Shown piece by piece: positions 1,848 to 12,020 of a stretch of 33,470 bases of DNA. The DNA lies in NCBI GenBank assembly GCA_012522555.1, contig JAAYKG010000123.1, positions 1-33,470 of the forward strand, read 5' to 3'. Within the stretch, counting starts at the first letter, position 1, and every line of letters starts with the position of its first letter. A model generated the notes under the pieces. That model was not told where the DNA came from. It saw nothing but the letters and a program-made list of their open reading frames with translations, and ran no database searches. A program made the position numbers and the translations under genes. This DNA is from Armatimonadota bacterium. Its GTDB lineage: Bacteria > Armatimonadota > UBA5829.

Positions 1848-2750
1848 CTAAAACACAGCCACAAGCACAAGCCCTATAAGCATAACCGTAATCGCGGCGA
1901 ACTTAATCATAGAGCGCGGCTCGCGCAAAACCGTAACACCCAGCATCGCGCCAATCGGGATACTGAGCTGTCGAAAGGCTACCACATAGCTGACATTTTT
2001 GGCCAGCGTCATAGCGAGAAGTACAATCGTATACGCGAGGCATATCCCGAACCCCGCCACTGCGACGTTTGCGAATCGGAGAGGCTCTGGTTTTTCGGCT
2101 TCCTTGCTGCTGCGTCCGGTAATCAAAAGGATCAACCCCAACCAGATAAATGTCGATACTCCCTCGAAAAACGCATAGCTCAGCGTAAGTGCGACCTTAT
2201 TTGCATCCACGCTTTCTTTCAGCGCACGCAAAGCGGAGTCGTCGGCGATCGAGTAGCCCGTGGTCCCAATTGCAGCCATTAGCGCAAATATAGTGGAAGC
2301 GTGCAGATAATCTCGCAGTTTCCAGTCGGAAAACCTGCGAATCGGCAGCAGCAAACCTCCTGCCGCGATCAATGCCATCCCCACTACGGAAAACGTCGAT
2401 AGCTGGCCTGCCTTGCCCATAAGCGCACTGACAAAAGCCACCATCAAAACAGGCGCCGACCGGGCGAGTGGATACGCCACAGAAAGATGGCCGGATTTAT
2501 ACGCTCCGGCCAGCCCCATAAAATAAATGGCTTGAAATAACCCGGTGATGGCTAAGATCACCCATACCTTTGACGGATATTTAGCCACCATATTCAGATT
2601 GGCCGCCACCACCGGGCTTAATAGCACTACCCCAGTCGTATTTGCGGCCAGAAAAAACCGCGCCGACGGATCGTGCCGTTTGCCGATGAGGTTCCATGTC
2701 GCATGCACAAACGCCGACAGGACTAAAAGCCCGATTGCAGCAGTGGTCAA
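1848..2750 (-). CDS. EamA/DMT-family transporter
   Basis: A 300-residue integral membrane protein with about ten hydrophobic segments in two five-helix halves, the layout of EamA drug/metabolite transporters. Family-like sequence includes the early HATWNLIGK segment, AYPLARSAPV near the end of the first half, and REPRSM before the last helix. It starts at TTG 2750: the TGA stop of the PHP gene overlaps this start (TTGA, four bases shared), so translation is probably coupled. The substrate cannot be read from the sequence; an exporter of a small organic molecule is usual for the family. Close coupling to a PHP-type phosphoesterase suggests the two act on related compounds, which is inference. 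The family and length fit well. Confidence 0.88.
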   Translation of the reverse strand: MTTAAIGLLVLSAFVHATWNLIGKRHDPSARFFLAANTTGVVLLSPVVAANLNMVAKYPSKVWVILAITGLFQAIYFMGLAGAYKSGHLSVAYPLARSAPVLMVAFVSALMGKAGQLSTFSVVGMALIAAGGLLLPIRRFSDWKLRDYLHASTIFALMAAIGTTGYSIADDSALRALKESVDANKVALTLSYAFFEGVSTFIWLGLILLITGRSSKEAEKPEPLRFANVAVAGFGICLAYTIVLLAMTLAKNVSYVVAFRQLSIPIGAMLGVTVLREPRSMIKFAAITVMLIGLVLVAVF

Positions 2751-4036
2751 CTATCGCAACCCCACATTTTATCGTATAGCTTTTCGACTCGACCTTTGAG
2801 CTTTGACAAAGCTTCGGCTGCACGTTTGTCACCCGCCGCATAATTCAACATCAGTCTGCCTTCTTCAAGGCACAACTCATCATGGAACGGAAAGATCTCG
2901 CGGAGAAGGAACTGGGCATAGCACACCAGCCTGAACGGCCCAAACGCCCGCACTCGCTCGTTGGGTAGAGCTTCCACCGCAACTGAATTGAGGCCGCGAA
3001 TGGCTTCTATCAGATCATTCAGATCGGCAGACTTAGCAAAGACGATTGTATGATACCAGCCAAACAAATCCGCCTGCTCGCAGCCGTGTGAGTCGGTCGC
3101 CCCCACAATCGGTATCGTTTTGCCTTTAGCGCGCTCCTCGTGATAGCGCGCTACCTGCAGCATGTTTGATTCCGCCTGCCAGACGTGGAACCCGCCGATC
3201 AACTCCAGCGCATCATAAGGCTGATGTTCAAACAACAAGTCGGTGATTTGCTCCGGAACATCGAATTTATACCCGTAGACCCAATACGGATGCGGGAAAA
3301 TCGCCAATCCCCCAGCCTCACGGATCTTTTCAAAACTCCACACACAAGAAGCGTATATGCGCCGAGCCGGTCCCTCCGGAACAAACGTCAAAGTCTTCTC
3401 CAACTCTGCAACCTGCTCCTCATATTGCGGGGTCTTGAAAAGATCGTTGACGCTGAACGAACCGCCAAAATTGACGATATGCACCGGGTTTGACGGTGGA
3501 TGGACCTCTTCTCCGGGATACAATCGCAAATCGATATCGACATCGGAGAATGCCGCCATCGCCTCCAGTGACGGAGCATATCTATGGTGATCCGTGATTG
3601 CCGCGAAATCCAGCCCGATCTTCCTGCACGACGCCGCCACAAACGCCGGAGATTCCTTGCCATCGGAATAATTGGTGTGCATATGGGTATCGCCTTTGTA
3701 TGGGCGCAATTCAAACAAATCCTGGTTCAGCGCATACAAAACAAACTCACCGACGACTTTACCATCCCCTTGCTCCAGCAGCAGAGTATATTCCTGTTCA
3801 GCATCGAAATCCAACGTCACGGTGATAGCGTTGTCCTTTGGGGTCACCGGCGTCCTCTGAAAATCGGTCTGCCTGGTCGTTCCGGGAACCCCGAGCATTG
3901 GTATCAGGCCGATTTGATAGGAGATATCATCGTGAAATTTACGGTGGTCGAAAAGAGGCTTGATAGTGATAGTAGTCTTCTTTTTCGCCCGCACGATTCG
4001 TGGCGAGCAATCGTAGTATCTGTGAGCGATACGCAT
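2747..4036 (-). CDS. PHP-domain metal-dependent hydrolase (CehA/McbA-like)
   Basis: A 429-residue protein. Residues 1-110 form an N-terminal beta-rich domain; residues 111-430 hold a PHP (polymerase and histidinol phosphatase) domain. Metal ligands are visible in order: HMH at 118-120 within THMHTNYSDG, DHH at 149-151, EEVH at 176-179, PHP around H249, and TDSHG with D315 and H317. This set is complete, so the protein should be an active metal-dependent phosphoesterase or related hydrolase. The N-terminal extension before the PHP core is typical of CehA/McbA-type proteins. There is no signal peptide, so it is cytoplasmic. ATG 4036 follows a good GAGGTGA ribosome site at about 4043-4050. It is the first gene of the chain and overlaps the EamA transporter gene by four bases. 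Substrate unknown. Confidence 0.88.
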   Translation of the reverse strand: MRIAHRYYDCSPRIVRAKKKTTITIKPLFDHRKFHDDISYQIGLIPMLGVPGTTRQTDFQRTPVTPKDNAITVTLDFDAEQEYTLLLEQGDGKVVGEFVLYALNQDLFELRPYKGDTHMHTNYSDGKESPAFVAASCRKIGLDFAAITDHHRYAPSLEAMAAFSDVDIDLRLYPGEEVHPPSNPVHIVNFGGSFSVNDLFKTPQYEEQVAELEKTLTFVPEGPARRIYASCVWSFEKIREAGGLAIFPHPYWVYGYKFDVPEQITDLLFEHQPYDALELIGGFHVWQAESNMLQVARYHEERAKGKTIPIVGATDSHGCEQADLFGWYHTIVFAKSADLNDLIEAIRGLNSVAVEALPNERVRAFGPFRLVCYAQFLLREIFPFHDELCLEEGRLMLNYAAGDKRAAEALSKLKGRVEKLYDKMWGCDS

Positions 4037-5604: not shown

Positions 5605-8304
5605 ATGACTCAAAACAAACCAAAATTCATCGCAATAGACGGCAACAGCCTGCTTTATCGCGCATTTTTCGCTATGAGGTATCTATCGACGTCCGACGGA
5701 GTTCCGACAAACGCGATCTACGGCCTTACGACGATGTTGCTGAAAGTGTTGGACGAATCTCCCGATTATGTCGTGGTTGCGTTTGACACCCCAAAGCCGA
5801 CATTCCGCCACGAGCGCTACGAGCTATATAAAGCTCATCGTAAAGCCGCCCCGGATGCGCTGATCGAACAAGCGCCGATAGCAAGGGAGCTGATCCGGGC
5901 GTTCAATATCCCAGTGATCGAGGTGGAGGGATACGAAGCCGACGACATCATCGGCGCGCTGGTCAAACGGGCGCGAGAGCACGGCCTAAGCTCAGAGATT
6001 CTGACAGGCGACCTCGACGCTCTTCAGCTTGTCAACGAAGATGTCAGCGTTCTAACAACCGTCAAAGGCGTGTCGGATATCGTTGTCTATGATACAAAGG
6101 CTGTCGTGGATCGATTCGGCATCAAACCAGATCAAGTGACGGATTTCAAAGGGTTAAAGGGAGACGCATCCGACAACATCCCTGGCGTTCCAGGCATAGG
6201 GGACAAGACAGCCCAAAGCCTGCTGGAGAAATATCACACCGTCGAGGGAGTGTTGGAGCACGTCTCCGATCTGCCCACCGGCAAGGTGCGCAAGTCCCTC
6301 GAAGAACATGCCGAAACGGCCCGATTGTCGAAACATCTGGCCACTATAGTAACCGATGTGCCGTTTGAATTTGATCTGGAGAGTTATCGCAAAAAGCAGC
6401 CGGATTTCGATGCGCTGCGCGATTTGTTCGTGCGCCTGGAGTTCAAGACGATGCTTAAGCGGCTGCCGGAGGTCGAGCAAGCCGCTGGGAAAGTTGCCCT
6501 GGAGGAAAAGCCTTCTCTCGGAGAGTGCCGCCGGATCGGTTCGGCGGCCGAACTCGATGAACTAATCGGGATGTTGAGCAAATCAGGGAGCTTCGCGCTG
6601 CAGTGCCACACTGCTGACGATAAATCCGTCCGCGCGAGAATTATCGGTATGAGCTTCTCCACCGGGGCTGACCATTCGGCGTATGTTCAAGTCAACGACC
6701 CTGCTGAAGAAGCGCTGGTTTTGACTATGACCGACGCGTATCAGGCTGATCTAGCCTCCCTTGCGCCGATTTTGAGCAAGGATAAGCTGGCGAAGTTTGT
6801 TCACGACGCCAAGCGCAACATCGCGGCTCTGCAATTGCGAAAAGTCGACTTGAACGGTGTCGTTTTTGATGCGATGCTCGGCGCGTATCTGCTGGATTCG
6901 TCGCGCAGTTCTTATGATATCGGCGATATCGCTTTCGAGCAGCTCTCCGTCGAGCTGGCCGGAGTGACGAGCAAAGGTGAATATGCCGATGAGGTGGAGC
7001 AGTTTTGCAATGAGGCTGAAGTCATCTACCGTGTAAAGCCGTTGATCGAGGAACGCCTTCGCGCCGACGGGGAATATGATTTATATTCCGAGGTGGAGAT
7101 GCCGCTGGCGGGGATCCTGGCTGAGATGGAGTTGACGGGGGTCACGGTCGATCGGCGGCAGTTGGAAGAGCTTTCGTTGAGCCTGAATGCCGATATTCGC
7201 GAACTGGAACAGCAGATATATCAACTTGCTGGAGAGCCGTTCAACGTGGGGTCGCCAAAGCAGATTCAGACGATACTCTTCGAAAAGCTCGGGCTGACCG
7301 CGGGCAAGAAAACCAAGACCGGCTATTCGACCTCGGCGGCTGCGTTGGAGGCGCTTGCGCCTGATCATCCGATTGTGGAGAATATTCTCAAATGGCGTGA
7401 GTTGACTAAGATAAAGTCTACATACGCCGATGCGCTGCCCAAGCTGATAAATCCGACCACAGGCAAAGTGCATACCTCCCTCAATCAAGCAGTGACTGCG
7501 ACTGGACGGCTGTCGTCCAGCGATCCTAATCTGCAAAATATCCCTATCCGAACCGAGCTTGGCCGGCATATCCGCAAGGCATTCGTGGCATCGCCGGGCT
7601 GCGCGCTAATATCGGCGGATTATTCTCAAATCGAGCTGCGAATCCTTGCGCATGTTACAGGAGATGAAGGTTTGGTGTCGGCGTTTGAGCATGATCTGGA
7701 CATCCACACGCGCACCGCGAGCACGATTTTTAACTGCCCTGAATCAGAGGTAACCCCGGATATGCGCCGCAGCGCCAAGACCGTTAATTTCGCGGTCATC
7801 TACGGCATGAGCGACTTTGCACTTAGCCAGACGTTGGGAATACCGATTGAGGACGCTCGTAAGTATATCGACACCTATTTCTCTCGATTTCCCGGGGTGA
7901 AAGACTATACGAACGCGACGATAGAGCAAGCCCGGGAGCGTGGATTCGTCTCCACTCCTCTCGGCCGCAGGCGATATGTGCCGGATATTCATAATTCCAA
8001 TCACAACATTCGATCGTTTGCCGAGCGCGCAGCGGTAAACATGCCGATCCAGGGCATGGCTGCGGATATAATGAAAATCGCTATGATTCGGGTTGCACAG
8101 GCTCTGCGGCCCCGCGCTGCGAAGATGATTTTGCAGGTGCACGACGAGTTGCTCTTCGAAGTCCCGCACGATGAACTCGACGAAGTGGTCGATCAAGTGC
8201 GTTATGAGATGGAGAACGCGTATCGCATTCGCGTGCCGCTGAAAGTTGATGTGAAGGTCGGGGATAACTGGGCGGAGATGCAGACGGTCGATCCCAGAGG
8301 ATAA
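5605..8304 (+). CDS. polA: DNA polymerase I
   Basis: An 899-residue family A polymerase for gap filling and primer removal. Residues 1-290: 5'-3' exonuclease, with FIAIDGNSLLYRAFF, EGYEADDIIG, TGDLDALQL and the helix-hairpin-helix region around KGDASDNIPGVPGIGDKTA. Residues about 305-480: a 3'-5' exonuclease fold that lacks the DxE of Exo I (ALQCHTADD stands where FDTET is expected), so proofreading is probably lost, as in Bacillus and Thermus enzymes. Residues about 500-899: polymerase with motif A DYSQIELR (D672), motif B RRSAKTVNFAVIYG (K725) and motif C VHDELLFE (D847). ATG 5605 has a poor ribosome site and sits 12 bases after sppA, suggesting translational coupling. Confidence 0.97.
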   Translation: MTQNKPKFIAIDGNSLLYRAFFAMRYLSTSDGVPTNAIYGLTTMLLKVLDESPDYVVVAFDTPKPTFRHERYELYKAHRKAAPDALIEQAPIARELIRAFNIPVIEVEGYEADDIIGALVKRAREHGLSSEILTGDLDALQLVNEDVSVLTTVKGVSDIVVYDTKAVVDRFGIKPDQVTDFKGLKGDASDNIPGVPGIGDKTAQSLLEKYHTVEGVLEHVSDLPTGKVRKSLEEHAETARLSKHLATIVTDVPFEFDLESYRKKQPDFDALRDLFVRLEFKTMLKRLPEVEQAAGKVALEEKPSLGECRRIGSAAELDELIGMLSKSGSFALQCHTADDKSVRARIIGMSFSTGADHSAYVQVNDPAEEALVLTMTDAYQADLASLAPILSKDKLAKFVHDAKRNIAALQLRKVDLNGVVFDAMLGAYLLDSSRSSYDIGDIAFEQLSVELAGVTSKGEYADEVEQFCNEAEVIYRVKPLIEERLRADGEYDLYSEVEMPLAGILAEMELTGVTVDRRQLEELSLSLNADIRELEQQIYQLAGEPFNVGSPKQIQTILFEKLGLTAGKKTKTGYSTSAAALEALAPDHPIVENILKWRELTKIKSTYADALPKLINPTTGKVHTSLNQAVTATGRLSSSDPNLQNIPIRTELGRHIRKAFVASPGCALISADYSQIELRILAHVTGDEGLVSAFEHDLDIHTRTASTIFNCPESEVTPDMRRSAKTVNFAVIYGMSDFALSQTLGIPIEDARKYIDTYFSRFPGVKDYTNATIEQARERGFVSTPLGRRRYVPDIHNSNHNIRSFAERAAVNMPIQGMAADIMKIAMIRVAQALRPRAAKMILQVHDELLFEVPHDELDEVVDQVRYEMENAYRIRVPLKVDVKVGDNWAEMQTVDPRG

Positions 8305-8344: not shown

Positions 8345-9385
8345 ATGAAAGCTTTGGGAGGCACAGCTAAATATCCCGGCACTGCAATCGCCGTCGGGGT
8401 TTATGTGGATGCGGCCAGCGGCATCAACGGGGTATCGTCCACATTACTTATGGAGGGGATATCGGCGTTGCGTCGAGGGTCGAAACCGGCCGACTACCCT
8501 GAAGCAATCCTGGCTTGCGATAATCTTAATACTGGAGCAGGCATAAGAATCCCCGGAATCAATATTATCGGTATCGCCTCCCAATCAGAAGCCGTTCCTG
8601 CGGAATATACAATCGATGTGCCATGTGTGATCGGAGTCGATGGCTTGTCAGGCTCGATTCAAGAAGGCGAGTTGGTGATAGTTGATGGCTACAAAGGGCT
8701 GGTTTATATCGACCCCGACCCATCGACTTTGATCCACTATCAACAGGCCGAGGAGCAAAGACAGCTTCGAAAAAAGATTTTCATCTCCTCGGAGCATATT
8801 CCATCACGCACGCAATCCGGCGTGACGGTCTATATCTATGCGCATGTTTCCAACGAACCCCAACTCGCGGGAGCGCTGTCTTCCGGCGCGGATGGGCTTT
8901 TAGTGGATTTGCGAAATGTGCGAGATGCGAACTATCTTCCTAATACGGCTCTGCGCGAGGCCGCGGGAAAACCAGTGACTTTCGTGGTGGAATACGGATG
9001 CGAAGAGATCCTGCGCGCCACCATGACCTACTGCACCCCTGGCCAGGTTACTCTGGCGTCAGAAAACCCCGATCTGCTGGCTTCCCAATTGGAGCACGCG
9101 ATGGATCGAATCGTTCTTGAGGCGCTTCAGTTAAATATCGACCCGCCGCAGGTGAATCTCGGTGGAGCGTATACGGCAGCGAATTACAACCCTGTGTTGG
9201 GCCAGGCGGCGGTTATAGACTGTCGCCAATCCGATTGCGCGACGAGCGCTGAAGAATCGACGGTGGTGATAATCGGCAGTTCACTGGATCACATTGCGGC
9301 GGCTGTTAAATTGGGTGCAAGGCGGATAGCCGTGGATCAAAGCTTCATCACAGAAGCAAAACACACTGTTTTGACCATTCACTAG
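8345..9385 (+). CDS. degenerate PTS Enzyme I-like protein (PEP-utilising enzyme fold, catalytic His absent)
   Basis: A 346-residue protein that can be aligned by eye along most of PTS Enzyme I (about 575 residues). GTAKYPGTAIAVGVYV (6-21) matches the GxxxSPGxAxG start. AILACDNLNTG (54-64), then GINIIGIASQSEAV (71-84) and IDVPCVIGVDGL (90-101) follow the swivelling phosphohistidine domain, continued by GELVIVDGYKGLVYIDPDP (108-126). VYIYAHVSNEPQLAGALSSG (162-181) and ADGLLVDLRN resemble the first barrel strands (normally ANIGSPED, GAEGIGLFRTE). The GGRTSH catalytic motif is replaced by ASQSEA, the helical HPr-binding domain is missing, and the RTEF active-site residues have changed to VDLRN. 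The reading frame is intact, so it looks like a maintained pseudoenzyme. It lies 40 bases after polA and ends in a four-base overlap with rex, which converges on it. Confidence 0.7.
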   Translation: MKALGGTAKYPGTAIAVGVYVDAASGINGVSSTLLMEGISALRRGSKPADYPEAILACDNLNTGAGIRIPGINIIGIASQSEAVPAEYTIDVPCVIGVDGLSGSIQEGELVIVDGYKGLVYIDPDPSTLIHYQQAEEQRQLRKKIFISSEHIPSRTQSGVTVYIYAHVSNEPQLAGALSSGADGLLVDLRNVRDANYLPNTALREAAGKPVTFVVEYGCEEILRATMTYCTPGQVTLASENPDLLASQLEHAMDRIVLEALQLNIDPPQVNLGGAYTAANYNPVLGQAAVIDCRQSDCATSAEESTVVIIGSSLDHIAAAVKLGARRIAVDQSFITEAKHTVLTIH

Positions 9386-10032
9386 TGATTTTCGTTATCG
9401 GGCAGATGAAACGACAACACCGCCAGTTCCTGCATAAAATCGACATTGCGAACCATCACGTCAGGCGGCAGGCGCAGCGCCGTCGGGGCGAAGTTCAAAA
9501 TAGTGCGAATCCCCGCTTGTATTAACTGCTCTGCCACATCTTGCGCGGAGGCAGCGGGCACTGTAATTATCGCGATCTTGGCGTGCAAGTCGTTGTTGGC
9601 ATTTGTCAAGTCGGCAATATCCTGCACAGTCAAGTTCCATAATCGCCGGCCGATCTTCTGCCGATTGTTGTCGAACGCCGCGACTATTTGGAAATTGCCG
9701 ACACGCAGCGCGGGATACCCCATAAGAGCGCTTCCAAGATTGCCTGTGCCTACTAAAAGAACAGGTTGAATCTTTTCGATGTTGAGAATTCGGGCGATGC
9801 GGGATTGAAGTTCATCGGTTATGTAACCGATTCCCGGCCTGCCGAACTCGCCAAAGTAGGACAGATCTTTGCGAAACTGAGCAGCGTTTATCCCGGTTCT
9901 TTCCTCTATGTCTGCCGAGGAGATTGTCTCGGGATGGCTTCGTTTGAGGTCGGAGAGGGCGGCGAAATAGGTCGCGAGACGTTCGAGAGCAGGCGTCGGC
10001 GCTTTGCTTCTATACCCTCTCCTTTCAGACAC
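9382..10032 (-). CDS. rex: redox-sensing transcriptional repressor Rex
   Basis: A 216-residue Rex protein, which binds DNA when NADH/NAD+ is low and lets go when NADH rises. The winged-helix domain (about 1-85) contains ISSADIEERTG, the recognition region QFRKDLSYFGEFGRPGIGY and the linker to the sensor. The Rossmann NAD(H) domain has VLLVGTGNLGSAL (about 91-103) and ends with the swapped helix VRNVDFMQELAVLSFHL. The start is GTG at 10032, with a GGGGAG ribosome site lying inside the end of the upstream membrane-protein gene; only two bases separate the genes. The stop overlaps the stop of the plus-strand pseudoenzyme in an ACTAGT palindrome. I found no convincing Rex operator (TTGTGAA-N4-TTCACAA) in the window. 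Confidence 0.95.
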   Translation of the reverse strand: MSERRGYRSKAPTPALERLATYFAALSDLKRSHPETISSADIEERTGINAAQFRKDLSYFGEFGRPGIGYITDELQSRIARILNIEKIQPVLLVGTGNLGSALMGYPALRVGNFQIVAAFDNNRQKIGRRLWNLTVQDIADLTNANNDLHAKIAIITVPAASAQDVAEQLIQAGIRTILNFAPTALRLPPDVMVRNVDFMQELAVLSFHLPDNENH

Positions 10033-10034
10033 AG

Positions 10035-12020
10035 CTACGCTCCCCAGAAGCTGAAGTATGGGATTTTGAACGTGATCCCGATCAGGCTCCAGATGCAGCC
10101 GATAGTCATCTCCCCGAGGATCAGCCCAAAGAAAAACGGAACCGCAGTCTTATACAACCGCAGCCCGCCAAACTTCAGTGTGAGAACCTTCAACAGCCAC
10201 GCCACCATAATAGGCAGCCAAACAAGGTTCATCGACCAGCTTCCGGAGATCGCATAGCCTATCGGGTGGAATGGGAAACTGAATATCTGAGTCCGGAGAT
10301 ATCCGAGCAATACGCAGAACAAGAAACCGCCGACCATCGCGGTATTCGCGCCCCAGTTGGGTTTTTCGAGCATGCTTGGGTGTTTCCACCAACTATCCAA
10401 CGTCCCGAACGCCTCTCGCGCGAACCCATACCCCTGGTAGAACTTCGCCCCTGTTCCGAATTGATAACCCAGGTGCAAAAACGCCCAGAATGCCGTAATC
10501 GTGCCGACCAGCGCGGCGATCATAATGCCTTTCATAAAGGTGCGTTGGCTCGATCTCGTCTCCTGAGCCATCTTCATACCCTCTATACCGACCGGCATCG
10601 GGTGGCCGCGATAGGCACGATTAAACCAGTAGAAATAAGTAAGCCCGACCATATCACCACGGGATAGATTCCCAAGCCCGCCGCTCGTTGTTATCATATA
10701 ATCCGGCCCGGAGAAGTGCAGATCGTGGACCGGCGGCCCCAGTTCGGCGCGCATTCGAGCTATCGCAGTAGCCAATATGAAGTAGATTAAGAACGCGATA
10801 ATACACAAAAACGGCGAAAGGCCGATCCACCGCATAAATAAACACAGCGCCAGAAAGCCTATCGCGGCCCCCGCAGCGGCCGAGCGGTATGACATAGGCT
10901 CGTCGGAATCGTCAAGCTCAGATTTAGCGCCGATAATTCGCAGCCACACCTGCTTGAGATATGCCTTACCGCTCCACGTCAGCATCAGGATAATCCCCAC
11001 GTACCCGCCGAATGCCTGGTGTCTGATGAACGGGAAGTTCGGCACGGCGTCCCGAGCCATCGCCCTCGTAACGACCATCTGTACCTTCCACATCAAATAG
11101 AAGAACCAGCACGAGAAGCTCAAATCAGCCGGCAGCAGATACCCCAGCCCAACCACAAACGGATACATCGACCAGGGCATCCAGTCGATACCGTTCCAGG
11201 GTTTTGATGTCATAAGCGGTCGTAGATCGTGGCCGACAATGGTGAGGTTGATCCCGGGGATCGCAGGATAATATACTGCAAGACCGTTGATTAAATCGAT
11301 CGTAAAAGCGATTCCAAACCCTATCCACATCAGCTTGTTGCGCCAAAGGTTCGTTTTGGGATCGGTCATCGCGACCGGGAGCTGGACTATAGGAAAAGTA
11401 AGTCGCTCGCGGTCGGTCCATTGCTTTCTCACCAAGGTGTTGATGCACATCATCACATAAAACAACACCATCGTAAATGCCGACCACAGCGCCACCGGCC
11501 GCACCCAGGCTTTCCAGTGCCCATTTGCATAAAGGCTGGACTGCCCCTCATAAAACCCCTTAAGAACCGTCAGGTCCGTTACACTCAGCATCTTCGGCAG
11601 ATACGGCACGAATGTATTCATCCAGTTATTATCCGGCGTCGCAAACCGCCACGGATAGCCCAAAAACATAACCAGACAAGGGACCATATCGTGGCCGGCC
11701 AGCGAAGCCGCAACCGCAACCATAGTATAAATCAACAGCAGTTCGCCGGATGTAAACGCGAGCCTTTTGCTGATGCGGGCCAGCGCGGTGTTGATTGCGA
11801 TCAAAATAGCGAGAATAAAGACGCAGTTGGCAAACAGGGAGATAATTGTGGGGTAGGGACCTTTATAGACCTTTTCCGTGATAATAACCCAATAGTTATC
11901 GAACGGAATAATCAGCAGCGCGACAATAAACGCACGAAGCCGAATCGAACCAGGCTTCTTTGCGCTGTCTTGTGTCGTACGCCGATCTTCCGAAGTGGCA
12001 TTTATCTCAGTGTGGCTCAA
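10035..12020 (-). CDS. OPT-like multi-pass membrane protein (DUF6785/DUF6784 type)
   Basis: A 661-residue integral membrane protein with about 12-15 hydrophobic segments and a polar N-terminus of about 28 residues. Size and layout, with conserved segments such as WTDRERLTFPIVQLP near residue 200 and ARMRAELGPPVHDLHFSGP near 440, recall oligopeptide-transporter-like proteins annotated as DUF6785/DUF6784 in Armatimonadota and Planctomycetes; the naming is from memory. The substrate is unknown. The start is TTG at 12020 behind a GAGGA ribosome site; no better start lies nearby. It has its own promoter at 12057-12086 and is followed by rex after two bases, so transporter and redox repressor are probably co-transcribed. 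Confidence 0.75.
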   Translation of the reverse strand: MSHTEINATSEDRRTTQDSAKKPGSIRLRAFIVALLIIPFDNYWVIITEKVYKGPYPTIISLFANCVFILAILIAINTALARISKRLAFTSGELLLIYTMVAVAASLAGHDMVPCLVMFLGYPWRFATPDNNWMNTFVPYLPKMLSVTDLTVLKGFYEGQSSLYANGHWKAWVRPVALWSAFTMVLFYVMMCINTLVRKQWTDRERLTFPIVQLPVAMTDPKTNLWRNKLMWIGFGIAFTIDLINGLAVYYPAIPGINLTIVGHDLRPLMTSKPWNGIDWMPWSMYPFVVGLGYLLPADLSFSCWFFYLMWKVQMVVTRAMARDAVPNFPFIRHQAFGGYVGIILMLTWSGKAYLKQVWLRIIGAKSELDDSDEPMSYRSAAAGAAIGFLALCLFMRWIGLSPFLCIIAFLIYFILATAIARMRAELGPPVHDLHFSGPDYMITTSGGLGNLSRGDMVGLTYFYWFNRAYRGHPMPVGIEGMKMAQETRSSQRTFMKGIMIAALVGTITAFWAFLHLGYQFGTGAKFYQGYGFAREAFGTLDSWWKHPSMLEKPNWGANTAMVGGFLFCVLLGYLRTQIFSFPFHPIGYAISGSWSMNLVWLPIMVAWLLKVLTLKFGGLRLYKTAVPFFFGLILGEMTIGCIWSLIGITFKIPYFSFWGA

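Follow-up and report, generated by a model that had tools for sequence, protein, structure and literature searches.

The open reading frame at 8345–9385 on the forward strand of the 33,470-nt stretch of DNA analysed here (the window) encodes a shortened relative of Enzyme I, which opens the bacterial sugar-uptake relay known as the phosphotransferase system (PTS); the protein was termed pseudo-Enzyme I (pEI). Very probably it descends from PTS Enzyme I and is non-catalytic, and a role as a scaffold or adaptor rather than as an enzyme is favoured. The probability that both statements hold together was put at roughly 0.6.

The frame started with ATG and was unbroken, giving a product of 346 aa, and the gene was single-copy in its genome (2.78 Mb, 100% complete), where a second copy was absent. 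The N-terminal strands of the swivelling domain were located at residues 1–22 (8345..8410, + strand), with strands at residues 2–5, 7–10 and 13–22 in the AlphaFold2 model. The start of the protein, MKALGGTAKYPGTAIAVG, matched the Enzyme I start G...SPG.A.G, and the glycines G6 and G12 of G...(S)PG.A were retained in 79/79 and 70/79 of the aligned family members, respectively. A short segment, residues 23–50 (8411..8494, +), occupied the place of the helical HPr-binding insert of Enzyme I and was predicted as a single helix (residues 32–43). The remainder of the swivelling (phosphohistidine) domain, residues 51–125 (8495..8719, +), matched PF00391 over residues 90–118 and was shortened at residues 76–97. 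At the place where Enzyme I has G..T..GG.TSHTAIlAR.lgIPAvvG, pEI has GIASQSEAVPAEYTIDVPCVIG. The TSH loop in the window's copy was both substituted and shortened, with about five residues fewer between the two conserved strands than in true Enzyme I. The linker helix followed at residues 126–160 (8720..8824, +); it bore the family motif Y-Q ... R/K144 ... H151-x-P-A-x-T156-x-D-G and was the most conserved segment of the protein. Residues 161–346 (8825..9382, +) formed a reduced eight-stranded barrel without the active-site residues of Enzyme I, the predicted strands being 161–168, 184–188, 211–214, 235–239, 270–277, 288–292, 306–311 and 327–331. The sequence GADGLLVDLR was present at the position of the Enzyme I block GA-GIGLFRTEF. 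The initial annotation, which described an intact frame over 1 kb, an SPG-like start, a missing HPr-binding insert, a replaced GGRTSH motif and an altered RTEF block, was thus borne out on each point, and the loop proved to be shortened as well as substituted.

The kinship with Enzyme I was evaluated at the levels of sequence, profile and predicted fold. The window's pEI matched the NCBIfam model TIGR01417 over residues 89–184 (E 1.4e-9, 37 bits), and the curated cut-off of 341.7 bits was missed by this protein and by the closest member of the family, L018 (87.7 bits). The match to PF00391 (E 5.5e-4) was below the family cut-off, and a phmmer comparison with Staphylococcus aureus Enzyme I from the PDB gave E 1.5e-8. 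Such single-sequence evidence is modest, yet it is real. Moreover, when the pEI family profile was compared with 13 true Enzyme I sequences by hhalign, the probability was 99.7% (E 3e-27, 321 columns), and the alignment spanned the swivelling domain, the linker and the barrel. The AlphaFold2 model built on the 22-member alignment A1 had a mean pLDDT of 88.5 and contained eight barrel strands; its pTM of 0.57 was moderate, which leaves uncertain how the two domains are placed relative to each other. The barrel was reduced in this model, with helices absent after strands 5 and 6, and Foldseek against the PDB ranked Enzyme I structures first (E 5e-12 to 5e-9) and pyruvate phosphate dikinase (PPDK) next. 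The separately predicted pEI of Chthonomonas calidirosea (404 aa, pLDDT 87.6) showed a complete (beta/alpha)8 barrel in which strands and helices alternate, with Enzyme I again as its top match (E 7.8e-17). Common ancestry and a common fold with Enzyme I were therefore shown by the profile alignment and the best structural matches. The least diverged pEI was that of genome G037 (L018 / L047), with a TIGR01417 match of E 6e-25 and a PF02896 match above the cut-off. G037 carries a complete Enzyme I and HPr beside its pEI, which makes this member a useful intermediate for understanding how the pseudoenzyme arose.

The distribution of the family was surveyed within the phylum. A first survey covered 60 relatives (61 genomes in all), and alignment A1 was used as a profile over 291 Armatimonadota genomes, where genuine Enzyme I genes were also returned; the residue and context counts given here were made on 79 members. 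One free-standing pEI of about 300–450 aa was present in each of about 80 of the 291 genomes, which belonged to 11 host families. Full-length homologs were found in nearly all genomes of the taxonomic family and order of the window's genome, and more distant ones occurred elsewhere in the phylum, including in the cultured type strain C. calidirosea T49. In a wider search for related loci, no relatives were returned with a single pEI protein as query. With the narrower alignment A2 as query nine relatives were returned, those named being Armatimonadetes or Armatimonadota, and the other matches were genuine Enzyme I genes from Bacillota, Actinomycetota and Chloroflexota. This distribution suggests that the pEI family is restricted to Armatimonadota.

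The residues lost and retained across the family were then compared. The TSH motif with the catalytic histidine was found in none of the 79 aligned members, so the loss noted in the window's copy is shared by its orthologs. The positions equivalent to E. coli Enzyme I R296, R332, E431 and C502 carried many different residues among the 79 members. The R358 equivalent lies in a segment that fell in a gap of the hhalign alignment and has no counterpart in pEI. The GG.TSH loop, the PF05524 domain, the PEP site, a score above the TIGR01417 cut-off and an HPr partner in the genome, by which an Enzyme I is recognised, were all absent. By this test pEI is not an Enzyme I, and what it shares with Enzyme I is ancestry and fold. 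The residues kept in pEI were the scaffold glycines, D114, P124, Y132-Q133, R/K144, H151 and P-A-x-T156. Conservation was high for Q133 (76/79), H151 (72/79), T156 (75/79) and K339 (79/79), and H151 had no counterpart in the true Enzyme I sequences compared. The between-family identity of the linker was 0.35 versus 0.19–0.29 elsewhere in pEI, with conservation lowest in the barrel's second half. In the barrel, the conserved G181-A182-D183, G208-K209 and G324 sit just before strands 2, 3 and 8, opposite the catalytic mouth, and no residue after the barrel strands was conserved at 60% or more. L043 and L045, from two genera of family f2, encode pEI proteins of 301 and 296 aa in which the linker motif is retained. 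These two members have no equivalents of the window's residues 242–303, which correspond to strands 5–6 with adjoining parts and part of strand 7. The scaffold or adaptor role is favoured because the conserved barrel residues lie opposite the mouth and because these two members dispense with barrel strands.

The same residues bear on a repurposed enzyme, in which the barrel would have gained a new activity through the family-specific H151, K209 and K339. The near-invariance of H151, Q133 and K339 could serve unrecognised chemistry, a full barrel is predicted for the Chthonomonas member, and a dehydrogenase gene adjoins pEI in 28 of the 79 loci. However, no conserved residue is found at the C-terminal strand ends, the site of action in barrel enzymes. 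Variability is highest in the second half of the barrel, and the f2 members have lost three strands. A new activity was accordingly regarded as unlikely, though as the most serious of the alternatives. A metabolite sensor, whose barrel would still bind PEP, pyruvate or a similar 2-oxoacid and would signal by domain movement without phosphotransfer, was considered less probable again. The joint retention of the Enzyme I barrel and the swivelling domain is consistent with such a sensor, and the neighbouring 2-hydroxyacid dehydrogenase, present in four families, would handle related acids. Nevertheless, the equivalents of the PEP ligands R296, R332 and E431 and of the catalytic C502 are unconserved, and the segment equivalent to R358 is missing from the alignment. 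Of the "sensor or scaffold" proposed in the initial annotation, the scaffold or adaptor therefore stands, while a PEP sensor is disfavoured by the loss of conservation at the PEP-binding residues and the barrel mouth.

Descent from the C-terminal half of PPDK or PEP synthase, in which case the HPr-binding insert would never have been present, was judged very improbable. The C-terminal domains of these enzymes comprise the same two domain types in the same order without a helical insert, PPDK follows Enzyme I in the fold search, and the window's genome encodes a PPDK, which is its sole PF02896 protein. Nonetheless, the sequence match to pEI is weaker (PEP synthase E 0.063 against 1.4e-9 for TIGR01417), L018 matches Enzyme I models only, the interdomain linker aligns with that of Enzyme I, and a protein of 346 aa has no room for an ATP-grasp domain.

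The non-catalytic Enzyme I descendant is maintained in its hosts. The dN/dS values of close pairs were 0.06–0.12 in families f8 and f27 and 0.18–0.36 in f32, the f8 values lay within the range of the neighbouring lptA gene, and distantly related pairs in which sites were saturated (e.g., L178–L147) were left out. Close pEI pairs are under purifying selection. In the maximum-likelihood tree, which has long branches, nearly all host families formed single groups, and the order of the window (f1, f2 and f3) was recovered together with full support. Since nearly all host families were recovered as single groups, the inheritance of pEI is mainly vertical. Hence, the loss of catalytic residues is combined with purifying selection and vertical inheritance, as in a pseudoenzyme, and the earlier proposal, that a non-catalytic protein of the PEP-utilising family has been maintained, agrees with the Enzyme I-like fold, the residues absent in orthologs and the selection on the gene. 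The least probable reading is an Enzyme I gene in decay that no longer has a function, as the lost active site, shortened domains and long branches might suggest. Against it stand the open frames in about 80 genomes of 11 families, the purifying selection, the recurrent operon context and the scarcity among carriers of an intact Enzyme I as a source of duplication.

The occurrence of the PTS in the carrier genomes was also examined. Neither HPr (PF00381) nor PF05524 was found in the genome of the window (INDEPENDENCE from PTS). In the 61 genomes, PF00381 and PF05524 occurred together in only 9, and HPr and Enzyme I were both missing in 21 of the 23 pEI carriers checked, including the window's genome; the two carriers with a PTS were G011 and G037. 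The PTS was present in 2/23 carriers versus 7/38 non-carriers, and this difference was too weak for an anti-correlation between the PTS and pEI to be claimed. The published genome of another member of the phylum, Fimbriimonas ginsengisoli, was likewise reported to be without a PTS (PMC4072686). Because pEI has long been kept in a phylum mostly without the sugar-uptake relay, a job other than that relay is indicated.

The gene neighbourhood was compared among the 79 members. In the window, pEI follows polA (DNA polymerase I; 5605..8304, +; Pfam DNA_pol_A E 2e-166) and is convergent with a gene for a rex-type redox repressor (9382..10032, −; Pfam CoA_binding and Put_DNA-bind_N), the two stops overlapping by 4 bp. 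The housekeeping setting described in the initial annotation, after polA and tail-to-tail with rex, was thus correct for the window and did not hold as a conserved linkage: polA adjoined pEI in no relative, and a convergent adjacent rex occurred only in the same-genus genome, so this linkage was rejected as a functional clue. Beyond rex, a DUF6785/DUF6784 membrane protein is encoded at 10035–12020 (−), and such a gene comes after rex in the same-genus genome as well. Elsewhere in the window, the product of 2747–4036 (−), 429 aa long, contains a PHP-like motif, THMHTNYSDG, and has no Pfam match at E 1e-6.

Across the family, 27/79 members, from seven host families, had lptA/lptC directly upstream of pEI, and 28/79, from four host families, had a gene for a D-2-hydroxyacid dehydrogenase directly downstream, 4-bp overlaps being common between pEI and these neighbours. 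The ancient context of pEI is lptC-lptA upstream and the 2-hydroxyacid dehydrogenase downstream, and polA and rex are local. The same-genus genome (L032) has the order lptC-lptA-pEI with rex convergent. In the genome of the window, both conserved neighbours have been lost at the pEI site. There, lptC and lptA are found on a different contig with a MEMO-like gene after them; their separation from pEI is a rearrangement that followed the split from the same-genus genome. A strict partnership with the Lpt system was rejected by the presence and absence of PF03968 relative to pEI. The Lpt link was absent in families f27, f30 and f32. In C. calidirosea (G047), which has pEI, PF03968 gave no match; conversely, f4/f5 genomes encode PF03968 proteins and lack pEI. 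Other arrangements were read from the sequences without a model search. In the f11 loci (L046, L130, L145 and others), pEI comes after a conserved series made up of two unknown genes and the genes for a small PqqD-like protein, an FtsX-like permease and an ABC ATPase. In family f32 (L164–L176), a MoxR-type ATPase and a DUF58-like protein are encoded immediately upstream of pEI in almost every member.

According to the residues lost, pEI would neither autophosphorylate nor transfer phosphate to HPr, and PEP is probably not bound. The protein would act as a soluble cytosolic scaffold or adaptor that grips its partners by the linker motif and by the bottom of the barrel. These partners might be components of outer-membrane lipid export or assembly, or the adjacent dehydrogenase, in which case pEI would tie a metabolic enzyme to envelope building. 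An envelope-related role, the foremost guess from the gene order, is tentative. In the fullest version of this proposal, an ancient PTS component stripped of all its chemistry would have been taken over, in a structural or regulatory capacity, by the outer-membrane lipid transport of a diderm phylum in which the PTS has mostly been lost, and pEI would connect LptC/LptA-type export to a 2-hydroxyacid dehydrogenase as an adaptor in the cytosol. This picture is speculative and rather unlikely to be right in its entirety.

Several known systems share features with pEI. Like PTS Enzyme I (PtsI, TIGR01417), pEI has a swivelling domain followed by a PEP-type barrel, and the two have in common the scaffold glycines, D114, P124 and the T-x-D-G of the linker; in contrast, it lacks the HPr-binding insert (more than 100 residues in Enzyme I), the phosphohistidine loop, the PEP-site arginines and the catalytic cysteine, it has 346 aa against about 570 aa, and HPr is missing from the window's genome. 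EI-Ntr (PtsP) was the second best sequence match (NF008283, E 3.7e-8), but pEI is without the GAF domain, NPr and phosphorylation. Crh of Bacillus is an HPr-like protein without the catalytic histidine that is used for regulation; its origin is HPr, and it operates alongside a complete PTS. Both are PTS paralogs retained after loss of the catalytic histidine, whereas pEI is derived from Enzyme I and mostly occurs without any PTS. No other conserved pseudoenzyme derived from PTS Enzyme I is known to us. Furthermore, no description of a pEI-like family was found in the open-access literature, which is weak evidence of absence because most subscription papers lay outside that scope. In the nitrogen PTS of E. 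coli, ptsN and ptsO are in one operon with lptB, and NPr inhibits LpxD and thereby regulates lipid A synthesis (PMC4635465). The position of pEI beside lpt genes may resemble this linkage, and the resemblance may be a coincidence.

The role of pEI is open to test because C. calidirosea T49, a cultured type strain, has the gene. If the scaffold or adaptor reading is true, the two-domain chassis of Enzyme I would be useful without PEP, phosphate or HPr. The gene order lptC-lptA-pEI-dehydrogenase is a concrete clue to the uncharacterised envelope biology of Armatimonadota.
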